Under the pieces are notes generated by a model. It was not told where the DNA came from and did no database searches. It worked only from the letters and a program-made list of their open reading frames with translations. The position numbers were made by a program, and so were the translations under genes. This document shows, piece by piece, positions 6,979-46,878 of a stretch of DNA of 64,000 nt. Location: the NCBI RefSeq assembly GCF_900186535.1, contig NZ_FYDE01000005.1, forward strand, positions 1,464,895 through 1,528,894. The letters are read 5' to 3'. Position 1 is the first letter of the stretch. Every line of letters starts with the position of its first letter. This DNA is from Marasmitruncus massiliensis (GTDB taxonomy: Bacteria; Bacillota; Clostridia; Oscillospirales; Ruminococcaceae).

Positions 6979-7841
6979 TGAACCATCGTTCAGCGAGGAT
7001 GATGAAATTTGCGGTAGATATGGTTTTTACAATCGCAGGTTGTTTCATTTTTGCGATCGGTATTTATGTATTTATCCAGCCAAATCAAATTGCGCCGGGC
7101 GGCGTCAGCGGCGCGTCAATTATGCTGCATTTTCTGACGGGGCTTCCGGTGGGCGCCCTGTCGTTATTCATGAATATCCCACTGCTGCTGCTTGCCTGGA
7201 AATTCTTGGGATCAAAGTTTACCGGCCAGACATTAATATCGGTAGCCACTCTTTCGTTTATGCTGGACTATATAGCCGTCCTATTTCCGCAGTATGAAGG
7301 AGACCCCCTGCTTGCCGCCTTGTTTGGCGGCGCGCTGATCGGTACGGGTCTTGCCATTGTTTTCATGCGGGGGTTTACCACCGGCGGCACGGACATCATC
7401 TCGCGCCTGCTTCAGTTAAAATATCCATATTTGCAGCTTGGCAAAATTCTGATGGTGATCGACTTGATTGTCATTTTAACTTCCGCTTATGTATTCGGAC
7501 GGATTGAAACGGCGCTGTATGGGATGGTGGCTGTTTTCACTTCTTCCCGTATGGTGGACAGTCTGCTTTACGGTATGGATACCGGGAAACTGGTCTACAT
7601 CATGTCCTGCAGAGCGGCAGAACTGAGCGAACGGATCATTGGAGGACTTGGGAGAGGCTGCACCATCTTAAAATCTACCGGTGCCTATACGAAACAGGAT
7701 TCCAACGTGCTGATGGTTGCGGTCAGACGCTCGCAGTACTATGTATTGAAAAAAATGGTCCGGGAAGTGGACCCCAGAGCGTTTATCATTGTTACGGATG
7801 CAACGGAAGTGCTTGGCGAAGGATTTAAACGAATCGAATAA
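6978..7841 (+). CDS. yitT: YitT-family membrane protein
   Basis: This is a 287-residue protein with about five to six hydrophobic segments in the first 180 residues, including the family motif GFTTGGTDIISRLLQLK. A soluble DUF2179-type C-terminal domain follows (from about residue 205; YVLKKMVREVDPRAFIIVTDA). The function is not established; YitT proteins are abundant in Firmicutes. The ATG at 6978 overlaps the mrnC stop by one base and is preferred over the TTG at 6975. A strong terminator follows. Confidence 0.88.
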   Translation: MNHRSARMMKFAVDMVFTIAGCFIFAIGIYVFIQPNQIAPGGVSGASIMLHFLTGLPVGALSLFMNIPLLLLAWKFLGSKFTGQTLISVATLSFMLDYIAVLFPQYEGDPLLAALFGGALIGTGLAIVFMRGFTTGGTDIISRLLQLKYPYLQLGKILMVIDLIVILTSAYVFGRIETALYGMVAVFTSSRMVDSLLYGMDTGKLVYIMSCRAAELSERIIGGLGRGCTILKSTGAYTKQDSNVLMVAVRRSQYYVLKKMVREVDPRAFIIVTDATEVLGEGFKRIE

Positions 7842-44143: not shown

Positions 44144-44536
44144 TCAATGATGGTCGTGTTCACCGCATCCGTGTTCACCACAGGTATCCCCATGATGCTC
44201 CCCGTGATGATCGCAGGTAGCTTCTGAGCTAAATTCGAGCCTGTCTGCCAGCAGGGCTTCGACTGCCTTGTCCGCGTCCCCGGTCACGCCGCCGAACAGT
44301 CTGATATCTGCTTCCGACAAAGCTCTCTTGGCTCCATCGCCAATACCGCCGCATATCAGTGTGTCCACATGCAGCTTTTTCAGAATATCCGCCAGCGCAC
44401 CGTGGCCGCTGCCATTGGTGCTGACTGTAGTTGCAACCGTCACTTTGCCGTCTTCAACGTCATAGACCTTAAACCTCTCCGTGTGGCCAAAATGCTGAAA
44501 CACCTCTCCGTTTTCGTATGTGACTGCAATCCTCAT
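44144..44536 (-). CDS. NifX/NifB-family iron-cofactor protein with His/Cys-rich tail
   Basis: A 130-residue protein with the dinitrogenase iron-molybdenum cofactor fold: MRIAVTYENGEVFQHFGHTE, VDTLICGGIGDGAKRALSEA and a Gly-rich turn. The last 25 residues are rich in His and Cys (CDHHGEHHG, CGEHGCGEHDHH), a likely metal-binding tail. No nif genes are nearby, so a general iron-sulfur or metal-handling role is more likely than nitrogen fixation. The ATG at 44536 follows GAGG; the longer GTG start is less likely. Confidence 0.85.
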   Translation of the reverse strand: MRIAVTYENGEVFQHFGHTERFKVYDVEDGKVTVATTVSTNGSGHGALADILKKLHVDTLICGGIGDGAKRALSEADIRLFGGVTGDADKAVEALLADRLEFSSEATCDHHGEHHGDTCGEHGCGEHDHH

Positions 44537-44683
44537 TTGATAAATCCTCACTTTCTGCTTTTAGCATCATGCAATACGGCATGTAATTACTTGCCAATGT
44601 ATCTAGTATAATTTTATTTATGTCATATGTCAATAACTAATTGTTTTTTGGATAAAATGGAAATCTAATAGGGACTAAAAAAC

Positions 44684-44713
44684 TTGACAATAAGGTCTGA
44701 AAAAGTGTAGAAT
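44684..44713 (+). promoter_or_regulatory. Promoter of radical SAM/TIGR03915 operon
   Basis: TTGACA (44684-44689), 18-base spacer, TAGAAT (44708-44713). The expected transcription start falls inside the LexA box. Confidence 0.78.
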
Positions 44714-44715
44714 AC

Positions 44716-44737
44716 AGTTAGAACATATGTTCTAACT
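44716..44737 (+). promoter_or_regulatory. LexA (SOS) box
   Basis: The core GAACATATGTTC (44721-44732) fits the Gram-positive LexA/DinR box GAAC-N4-GTTC. It is extended by perfect arms AGTTA and TAACT into a 22-bp palindrome. It lies 3 bases after the -10 element and 2 bases before the GGAGG of the gene. Confidence 0.85.
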
Positions 44738-44749
44738 TGGAGGCCTGTT

Positions 44750-46060
44750 ATGGAACTGATGGATAAACTCGAAATTTTGTCTGACGCCGCAAAATATGAT
44801 GCTGCCTGCACTTCTTCGGGTGTTTCGCGGGAGGCACGTCCCGGATCGATCGGCAGCTGTTCGCTGGGCGGTATCTGCCACAGCTTTGCCGCCGACGGAC
44901 GATGTATCTCGCTGCTGAAGGTGCTGATGACCAATTCCTGTGTTTATGACTGCAAATACTGCGTTAACCGGAGGAGCAATGACGTTCGCCGCGCAGTTTT
45001 TACACCGCGTGAGCTTGCGGAACTCACCATTCAATTTTACCGCCGCAATTATATTGAAGGGCTTTTTCTGTCGTCCGGCATTTTGAAGAATCCGTCCTAC
45101 ACCTGTGAACAGATGATCGAAACGCTGGAGCTTCTGCGCAATGAATATCATTTCAATGGCTATATCCACGCAAAAGCCATCCCCGGAGCCGATGACGCCC
45201 TGATTCAGCAGCTTGGCCTGCTGGCCGACCGCATGAGCGTCAACATTGAACTGCCGTCCCAGCAAAGCCTGTCACTTCTGGCGCCCGACAAATCCAAAAC
45301 GGACATCCTGCGCCCAATGGGCCTGATCACGCAGAAAATTGCTGAAAACACCACCGAAATCGTGCGCTATCAGCATACGCCCAAATTCGCGCCGGCAGGG
45401 CAGAGCACACAGATGATTATCGGGGCGACCCCGGACACAGATTTTAAAATCCTCAACCTGACACAGGCGCTTTACAAAAAATATAGCCTGAAACGGGTCT
45501 TTTATTCTGCCTATATGCCCGTACAGAGTGATTCTTTGCTGCCTGCCATTGATACAAAGCCGCCCCTTCTGCGGGAACACCGCCTGTATCAGGCGGACTG
45601 GCTGCTGCGCTTTTACGGCTTTGACGCTTCCGAACTGCTGGACGAGCAGCATCAGAGCTTTAATCCGCTGGTCGACCCAAAATGCAACTGGGCGATCAAC
45701 CACATGGAACAGTTTCCGGTGGAAGTGAACAAAGCGCCCTATGAAATGTTGCTGCGCGTGCCGGGGATCGGCGTAAAAAGCGCGCAGCGGATTTTGCAGA
45801 CAAGGCGGACCGGTCCCATTTCTTTTGACGGGCTCAAACGCATCGGGGTGGTGCTCCGGCGCGCCCAGTATTTCCTGCTCTGCCAGGGGAAAATGGCGGA
45901 AGGGCTGCGTGTAACGCCGGAAAGCGTGCTGCGCGCACTGATTTCAAAACAGGACTATGAAGCTGCACTGCGCGTGCAGGAACAGCCGCAGCAGCTCTCG
46001 CTGTTTGATCGGGACCCTACAAAGGAGGATCTTGCAAAATGTCTGACAGGGCAAATCTAG
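44750..46060 (+). CDS. Radical SAM protein with HhH tail, TIGR03916 family (putative DNA repair/modification)
   Basis: A 436-residue protein. The radical SAM cluster motif TNSCVYDCKYCVNRRS has Cys64, Cys68 and Cys71, and additional Cys residues precede it (SCSLGGIC). The core is related to spore photoproduct lyase-like enzymes. A C-terminal helix-hairpin-helix (LLRVPGIGVKSAQRILQTRR, about 335-355) suggests DNA binding. It is a known companion of the next gene; the reaction is not established. The SD is GGAGG 6 bases before the ATG. A LexA box in its promoter links it to DNA damage. Confidence 0.88.
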   Translation: MELMDKLEILSDAAKYDAACTSSGVSREARPGSIGSCSLGGICHSFAADGRCISLLKVLMTNSCVYDCKYCVNRRSNDVRRAVFTPRELAELTIQFYRRNYIEGLFLSSGILKNPSYTCEQMIETLELLRNEYHFNGYIHAKAIPGADDALIQQLGLLADRMSVNIELPSQQSLSLLAPDKSKTDILRPMGLITQKIAENTTEIVRYQHTPKFAPAGQSTQMIIGATPDTDFKILNLTQALYKKYSLKRVFYSAYMPVQSDSLLPAIDTKPPLLREHRLYQADWLLRFYGFDASELLDEQHQSFNPLVDPKCNWAINHMEQFPVEVNKAPYEMLLRVPGIGVKSAQRILQTRRTGPISFDGLKRIGVVLRRAQYFLLCQGKMAEGLRVTPESVLRALISKQDYEAALRVQEQPQQLSLFDRDPTKEDLAKCLTGQI

Positions 46061-46878
46061 TTTACACCTGCGACGGCAGTCTGGAAGGAATTTTGTGCTG
46101 CGTGTTTGAAAGTTATGTGCGCCGCGAAGTTCCTGTGGATATTCTGCCGGATGGGGAACTGACGCTGTTCCCGGTCCGGCAGATTGTTTCCGATGAGGCG
46201 AAGGCTATACGGATACATCGCTCGCTGGAACGCATCTCCGGAGAGGTGCTGGAATGGACGCAAACCGCCTATCTTTCCTGCGTGGACGGCAGGGAATTGC
46301 TGATCTACCGGTTCATCACGCTTGCTTACCGGTACGGCGCAAAAGTCACCTCGATGCTGGCCGACCCGGTAGTAAGCGGGGTATTCAAGGCGGTGCGCGC
46401 GGTACGCAATGAAGCGCACCTGCTGACAGAATTCCTCCGGTTTTCCGATTTCGGCGGCGCGCTGGTGGCTGAAATTGAGCCGAAAGCGCTGGTGCTGCCT
46501 TACCTGAAAACGCATTTTGCGGGACGTTTTCCGGATGAGACTTTTTTCATTTTCGATCTGACGCATGGTCTCGCGCTGCTTTATCGCCCCTATGAAGCGT
46601 CGATTCAGCCAATCGACGGGTTTGAACTGCCGCAGGCAAGCGGGGAAGAACGTGCATTTCGCAGCCTGTGGAAACGATATTATGATACGATCGCTATTGA
46701 AGGAAGATATAACCCCCAATGCCGCATGACCCATATGCCCAAACATTTCTGGAAGCATATGACGGAGTTTTCCGATCAAATTTCTTTGCCCGGGGAGACG
46801 CGGGAAAGCTGCCTTCCTTCCTCGTCAAACCCGCAGAACCCTTGCCGGCGCATTGGCACAGATACCGCTCGCGAATAG
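46039..46878 (+). CDS. TIGR03915-family putative DNA metabolism protein
   Basis: A 279-residue protein with the family start VYTCDGSLEGILCCVFESYV and the end MPKHFWKHMTEF at about 235-245. It is the usual partner of the radical SAM protein. In some organisms the family is fused to a uracil-DNA-glycosylase-like domain. Here the last 35 residues are a low-complexity tail and no glycosylase is present. It overlaps the upstream gene by 22 bases, with AGGAGG about 10 bases before its ATG, so expression is coupled and SOS-controlled. Confidence 0.85.
   Translation: MSDRANLVYTCDGSLEGILCCVFESYVRREVPVDILPDGELTLFPVRQIVSDEAKAIRIHRSLERISGEVLEWTQTAYLSCVDGRELLIYRFITLAYRYGAKVTSMLADPVVSGVFKAVRAVRNEAHLLTEFLRFSDFGGALVAEIEPKALVLPYLKTHFAGRFPDETFFIFDLTHGLALLYRPYEASIQPIDGFELPQASGEERAFRSLWKRYYDTIAIEGRYNPQCRMTHMPKHFWKHMTEFSDQISLPGETRESCLPSSSNPQNPCRRIGTDTARE

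Follow-up and report, generated by a model that had tools for sequence, protein, structure and literature searches.

The closest described systems are the CAC3343-CAC3344 operon of C. acetobutylicum, presumably a member of the TIGR03916 family as judged from its name, and the COG1573-COG4277 operon, whose COG4277 component we take to be the same family. The former was named as putatively LexA controlled from promoter footprinting and expression (PMC3828012); the available text of that study covers one species at the level of prediction, with no phylum-wide test, structure, or function. The latter was reported to be under SOS control in Bacteroidetes, with Verrucomicrobia and Alphaproteobacteria cited too, and was interpreted as a base excision system built on a uracil-DNA glycosylase; neither the radical chemistry of the COG4277 protein nor crosslinking is discussed in the available part of that paper (PMC8565304). 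The operon analyzed here resembles it in its apparent SOS control but differs in having no glycosylase attached. In the available passages of two further sources, DUF4130 was predicted to be a mutagenesis-related enzyme found beside SplB-like radical SAM proteins and UDGs (PMC3765255), and a protein of this family name was up-regulated by desiccation in Acinetobacter (PMC13130816). No activity, DNA-binding, or damage-induction data were found for any family member in the portions of the literature available, and a word search of the available papers for the names TIGR03916 and TIGR03915 found no mention of them. The earlier note had proposed the operon as a candidate for an undescribed function. 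This holds for the function but not for the regulation, because LexA control has already been published, as the available text of these papers indicates (PMC3828012, PMC8565304).

The window, a 64,000-nt stretch of the forward strand of Marasmitruncus massiliensis (GCF_900186535.1, contig NZ_FYDE01000005.1, positions 1,464,895 to 1,528,894), contains the two genes on its plus strand. A consensus scan located a sigma-70-like promoter, TTGACA-18-TAGAAT, at window positions 44684 to 44713, with 11 of the 12 positions matching; the −35 element TTGACA (44684 to 44689) and the −10 element TAGAAT (44708 to 44713) are separated by an 18-nt spacer. Next to it, at 44716 to 44737, is the palindrome AGTTAGAACATATGTTCTAACT, perfect over all 22 bp, with the core GAACATATGTTC, which was assigned as a LexA (SOS) box from its sequence and its conservation. 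The ribosome binding site of gene 1, GGAGG, is at 44739 to 44743, and gene 1 itself, encoding a TIGR03916 radical SAM protein of 436 amino acids, starts with the ATG at 44750 and ends at 46060. Gene 2 (46039 to 46878), encoding a TIGR03915/DUF4130 protein of 279 amino acids, overlaps gene 1 by 22 nt, and its ribosome binding site, AAGGAGG, is within gene 1 at 46022 to 46028. The coordinates and the sequence thus confirmed that the palindrome is between the −10 element and the Shine-Dalgarno sequence of an overlapping two-gene operon. On the minus strand, at 44144 to 44551, is a divergent gene of the dinitrogenase iron-molybdenum cofactor family (PF02579), with which the operon has its intergenic region in common.

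The 22-bp palindrome was the longest perfect one in the 64-kb window, the runner-up being 16 bp, and the chance expectation for a perfect palindrome of this length is ∼0.015 per 64 kb if equal base frequencies are assumed. The GAAC-N4-GTTC pattern alone was not enriched. It was found twice in the window compared to 0.84 times expected, and 19 of 100 shuffles reached two; genome-wide, there were 58 sites compared to 65 for the reversed control pattern, and a narrower box pattern gave 17 sites compared to 16 for its control. The second GAAC-N4-GTTC of the window, GAACCATCGTTC at 6980 to 6991, lies inside open frames and is probably a chance occurrence. GAAC-N4-GTTC alone is thus nonsignificant, and the box is supported instead by the length of the palindrome, its position, its conservation, and the presence in this genome of such boxes before lexA, recA, and a dinB-like gene. 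Of the 17 narrower-pattern sites, two lie side by side before a dinB-like polymerase gene and one each before recA, lexA, and the TIGR03916 operon, five in total; lexA was located by family search, and the recA and dinB-like genes were named by eye. The lexA box, AAACATATGTTT, has the same inner ATAT as the operon box. The operon promoter therefore carries a box of the kind also found at lexA and recA in the same genome, as would a member of the LexA regulon. The paired LexA-type boxes before the dinB-like gene are at C1:66221-66245 (L083), and this gene follows an ATP-dependent-ligase-like gene (by eye). A perfect GAACATTTGTTC at C3:1235241 (L095) is upstream of a gene resembling those of HTH repressors, after which comes an ImmA-like gene (by eye), an arrangement that resembles mobile elements, and more perfect boxes of the GAACATTTGTTC form are present at two other loci (L091 and L092).

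Box counts in the upstream regions of two samples showed that the box is kept in orthologous promoters. The close-relative sample consisted of the best 80 of 394 loci and is hence biased to near kin, whereas the phylum sample was derived from 299 genomes drawn evenly, 67 of which (own included) match TIGR03916 over the cut-off. The 68 phylum loci comprise the 66 non-own loci that exceed the cut-off and two that fall below it, including a broken fragment. The box counts in both samples ignore kinship, loci shared between the samples were kept, and some start codons were chosen by script. Within 250 bp upstream, the close relatives had a perfect box in 38 of 80 loci and a box with at most one mismatch in 65 of 80, compared to 1 and 14 of 80, respectively, for the reversed control; four permuted controls gave no perfect box and a one-mismatch box in 4 to 9 of 80. 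The density of perfect boxes was 2.18 per kb upstream compared to 0.007 per kb in the remainder of the same 80 loci. The frequencies in the phylum sample were 16 of 68 (perfect) and 46 of 68 (at most one mismatch), compared to 0 and 3 of 68 for the reversed control, and a diverged short subfamily (288 to 335 bits against the own protein) had the box in 11 of its 12 loci in this sample. When both samples were pooled, the box was present in 111 of 148 loci, although a handful of these sites (L144, L151, and L112) lie a long way upstream or have an unusual core and may be chance; the commonest core was ATAT (34 of 111). Of the 68 phylum promoters, 22 had no box at one mismatch or fewer, yet LexA was over the cut-off in all 22 genomes. 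Some promoters lacking such a box carry one with two mismatches, e.g., AAACATATGTTT. In two genomes (G067 and G270), lexA carries perfect boxes but the TIGR03916 operon lacks one, in a comparison that is partial since the LexA start was not located for 11 of the 24 entries.

Relatives are also present in 158 plasmid records, mostly from alphaproteobacterial genera, of which 16 were examined, picked by genus among 30 listed. A perfect GAAC-N7-GAAC was found in all 11 alphaproteobacterial plasmid loci and a perfect CTGT-N8-ACAG in both betaproteobacterial ones, always within 50 bp of the start, compared to two and one occurrences, respectively, in the rest of these 16 loci (103 kb). We take these patterns to be the LexA consensus sites of alphaproteobacteria and betaproteobacteria, respectively. 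In the Parabacteroides, Gemmatirosa, and Subdoligranulum plasmid loci (L170, L182, and L183), none of the four box patterns was matched perfectly, the start codon of the Gemmatirosa locus having been set roughly by hand. The Gemmatirosa relative is 39% identical over residues 54 to 387 and is without the N-terminal cysteine triad described below; it possibly represents a separate subfamily. Three types of LexA box are found ahead of one operon, and a damage-response function is therefore argued. Damage control, which the earlier note had proposed, is well supported by the conserved boxes in the close-relative and phylum samples and the group-specific LexA boxes in Proteobacteria, and it is very likely, on this sequence evidence, that LexA controls the operon. 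In the SOS response, RecA-triggered cleavage of LexA relieves repression. Here, LexA bound to the palindrome would sit immediately after the −10 element and block the promoter, at a position that would let it cover the transcription start, and RecA-triggered cleavage would free the operon promoter.

The gene 1 product scored 680 bits against TIGR03916 (cut-off 343.5), with residues 3 to 419 aligned to profile positions 1 to 415 of 415. Its layout consists of a triad of cysteines (C20, C43, and C52), the radical SAM motif (C64, C68, and C71), a barrel extending to residue ∼288, and a helix-hairpin-helix (HhH) at ∼323 to 354. Of the two domains that the earlier note had read in this protein, the CxxxCxxC core was borne out, with C64-x3-C68-x2-C71 conserved in 164 of 165 sequences; the C-terminal HhH was seen, but its HHH_3 match (E 6e-5, 23.5 bits) is under the Pfam cut-off of 27. 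The general Pfam Radical_SAM model also gave 23.5 bits, under its cut-off of 29.5. The N-terminal triad, with the spacing C-x22-C-x8-C, is conserved in 163 of 165 sequences, and the six near-invariant cysteines are enough to propose a second metal site. A sequence search against solved structures returned only HhH, radical SAM core, or weak matches, the best being the ComEA-related 2duy (profile E 0.0018). The best fold match of the predicted barrel was lipoyl synthase, with HydE, BioB, and others within 1 to 3 Z; confidence in the model is low in its N-terminal part.

The gene 2 product scored 217 bits against TIGR03915 (cut-off 112) and 162 bits against DUF4130 (cut-off 27). No glycosylase domain was found in it by profile and Pfam scans, consistent with the earlier reading that none is attached here. 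By fold comparison alone, its predicted fold resembles DHH-DHHA1 enzymes. It differs from the DHH-DHHA1 phosphoesterases (RecJ, NrnA, and PAP phosphatase) and Cdc45 in sequence: profile comparison with the NrnA and RecJ sets showed no similarity, none of the conserved gene 2 columns form DHH or DHD metal-binding motifs (judged by eye), and DHH membership by sequence was rejected because the profile comparisons were empty. The single match in a sequence search against solved structures had an E value of 0.38 and was taken as chance. As the earlier note had supposed, TIGR03915 is the regular companion of the radical SAM gene. It is downstream in 76 of the 80 close-relative loci, and one of the four loci without it (L075) stops 82 bases past the radical SAM gene. 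The overlap of the pair is 19 nt in 52 of the 76 loci, compared to 22 nt in the own operon. In 62 of the 68 phylum loci, the partner follows downstream on the same strand, and four of the other six genomes encode it elsewhere; none was found in the remaining two genomes, in one of which the radical SAM gene itself is only a fragment. The partner is kept even when unlinked, and the pairing therefore seems to reflect function and not simply gene order.

The second gene is longer in scope in the alphaproteobacterial and betaproteobacterial operons, where TIGR03915 and TIGR03914 (UdgX) form a single polypeptide; each exceeded its cut-off in all three fusions tested. The GEQPG motif and the histidine at the R-loop position are present in 13 of 13 proteobacterial fusions, with the exact [KR]RR[IL]H in 10. 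According to the available text, UdgX removes uracil and becomes covalently attached to the abasic site, the bonding residue being H109 of KRRIH (PMC10359453). Here, in contrast, the partner is unfused, and no UdgX is over the cut-off in the own genome; the single match in a TIGR03914 search is a family-4 UDG encoded elsewhere (144.5 bits compared to a cut-off of 190), which has GEGPG instead of GEQPG, no R-loop, and no upstream box at one mismatch or fewer. The Parabacteroides partner is also without a UdgX domain, like the own clostridial partner. The UdgX fusion suggests a damaged base or an abasic site as the substrate.

From the sequences compared, it is likely that the pair processes a lesion. 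The more specific proposal of the earlier note, that a DNA adduct would be repaired or removed through light-independent radical chemistry, is an inference. The reading that we favor, and judge to have a better than even chance, is a LexA-repressed, damage-induced two-protein enzyme that processes a DNA lesion, for which a candidate substrate class only is offered. The TIGR03916 protein would bind DNA via its HhH and make a 5′-deoxyadenosyl radical at the radical SAM cluster, while a second metal site on C20, C43, and C52, probably Fe-S given their conservation, may serve in chemistry or electron transfer. The TIGR03915 protein, whose predicted fold is DHH-DHHA1-like and which has no DHH active site, may present or hold the DNA substrate. 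In alphaproteobacteria and betaproteobacteria, the fused UdgX-type domain would excise a base resembling uracil and cap the abasic site through a covalent bond. A more specific form of the proposal, namely a light-independent SOS-induced lesion enzyme of an undescribed kind that combines a two-cluster radical SAM protein, an HhH, and a DHH-like pseudo-enzyme, is LexA controlled in at least two phyla with three box types, and is coupled to UdgX in alphaproteobacteria and betaproteobacteria, is tentative, and we give it somewhat less than an even chance.

The term "SplB-like" in the available text of PMC3765255 suggests a direct reversal of thymine dimers as carried out by SPL, and SplB is indeed a radical SAM enzyme acting on DNA, with both SPL and TIGR03916 being radical SAM proteins tied to DNA. 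This is unlikely, however, because profile similarity is limited to the cluster motif (36 to 45 columns around CxxxCxxC), no SPL match was obtained at E 0.01 in the Pfam scan, and TIGR03916 has another cysteine set, six conserved cysteines in all, an HhH, and a partner; SPL kinship was rejected on the first two grounds. The 50 fold entries listed for gene 1 do not include SPL, although an SPL match may lie beyond them. The own genome has a separate SPL gene. Among SPL genes of the phylum, a perfect box was found upstream of 0 of 23 and a one-mismatch box upstream of 1 of 23, compared to 4 of 23 for the reversed control, with 23 of 25 loci resolved and the starts crude. The resemblance to lipoyl synthase raises another alternative, a sulfur-inserting nucleic acid modifier of the lipoyl synthase or MiaB type that uses the second cluster as a sulfur source and marks or protects DNA or RNA during damage. 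Lipoyl synthase is the best fold match of gene 1, and in both proteins three extra cysteines are found before the radical SAM motif. But HydE, BioB, and others match at nearly the same Z, this barrel is common to the superfamily, and the N-terminal part, where the triad lies, belongs to the low-confidence portion of the model. The auxiliary motif of LipA is CX4CX5C, a spacing absent from gene 1, the LipA profile aligns over the radical SAM core only, and the own genome had no LipA (TIGR00510) match at E 0.001; membership in lipoyl synthase was rejected for these reasons. Gene 1 also adds the HhH and a different partner. Since SOS control also suits repair better than routine modification, sulfur insertion seems improbable.

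An accessory role in uracil or abasic-site excision repair deserves more weight and is possible, though we lean against it. The pair would prepare a lesion for a glycosylase or remove the UdgX-DNA crosslink, with the host family-4 UDG standing in wherever UdgX is not fused. The fusions of TIGR03915 to UdgX that immediately follow the radical SAM gene, with their invariant GEQPG and R-loop histidine, favor this role, as do the covalent capture of abasic sites by such residues (PMC10359453) and the treatment of the operon as a UDG-based system (PMC8565304), both according to the available text. It is less easily reconciled with the own clostridial and Parabacteroides partners, from which the UdgX domain is missing, and with an own genome whose only TIGR03914 match is the ordinary family-4 UDG. 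The copies on plasmids could instead mean that the pair has an anti-phage role or serves mobile elements and only borrows the SOS signal. There was no PADLOC match, viral contigs contained no close relative in a search that reaches close relatives only, and anti-phage function was rejected on these two results; defense-type genes were also absent from the commonest neighbors of the 80 loci. We consider this explanation very improbable.

With LexA-type boxes conserved in groups whose LexA sites differ, a DNA damage role is hard to avoid, and the pair represents a widespread, functionally blank part of the SOS response. As far as the available literature shows, damage control was known in outline before and the substrate was not. 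New here are the six near-invariant cysteines, the lipoyl-synthase-like barrel, the lack of sequence kinship with SPL, the predicted DHH-DHHA1-like fold of the partner, which is without the DHH motifs, and the UdgX fusion; the fusion and the second cysteine set give concrete ideas on the substrate and the chemistry. If the proposal is true, dark radical DNA repair in vegetative cells would add a chemistry beside those of photolyases and spore photoproduct lyase.

Neighbor families were built from open frames of at least 90 amino acids linked at >90 bits, and no family other than the partner was present in more than 8 of the 80 close-relative loci; a conserved third gene was rejected, as the next commonest family reached only 8 of 80. 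In four genomes of one family (L234 to L237), the TIGR03915 gene is unlinked and adjoins a QueC-like gene (by eye). In the Parabacteroides plasmid, queF and queC are just beyond the operon, on the opposite strand, with one gene between.
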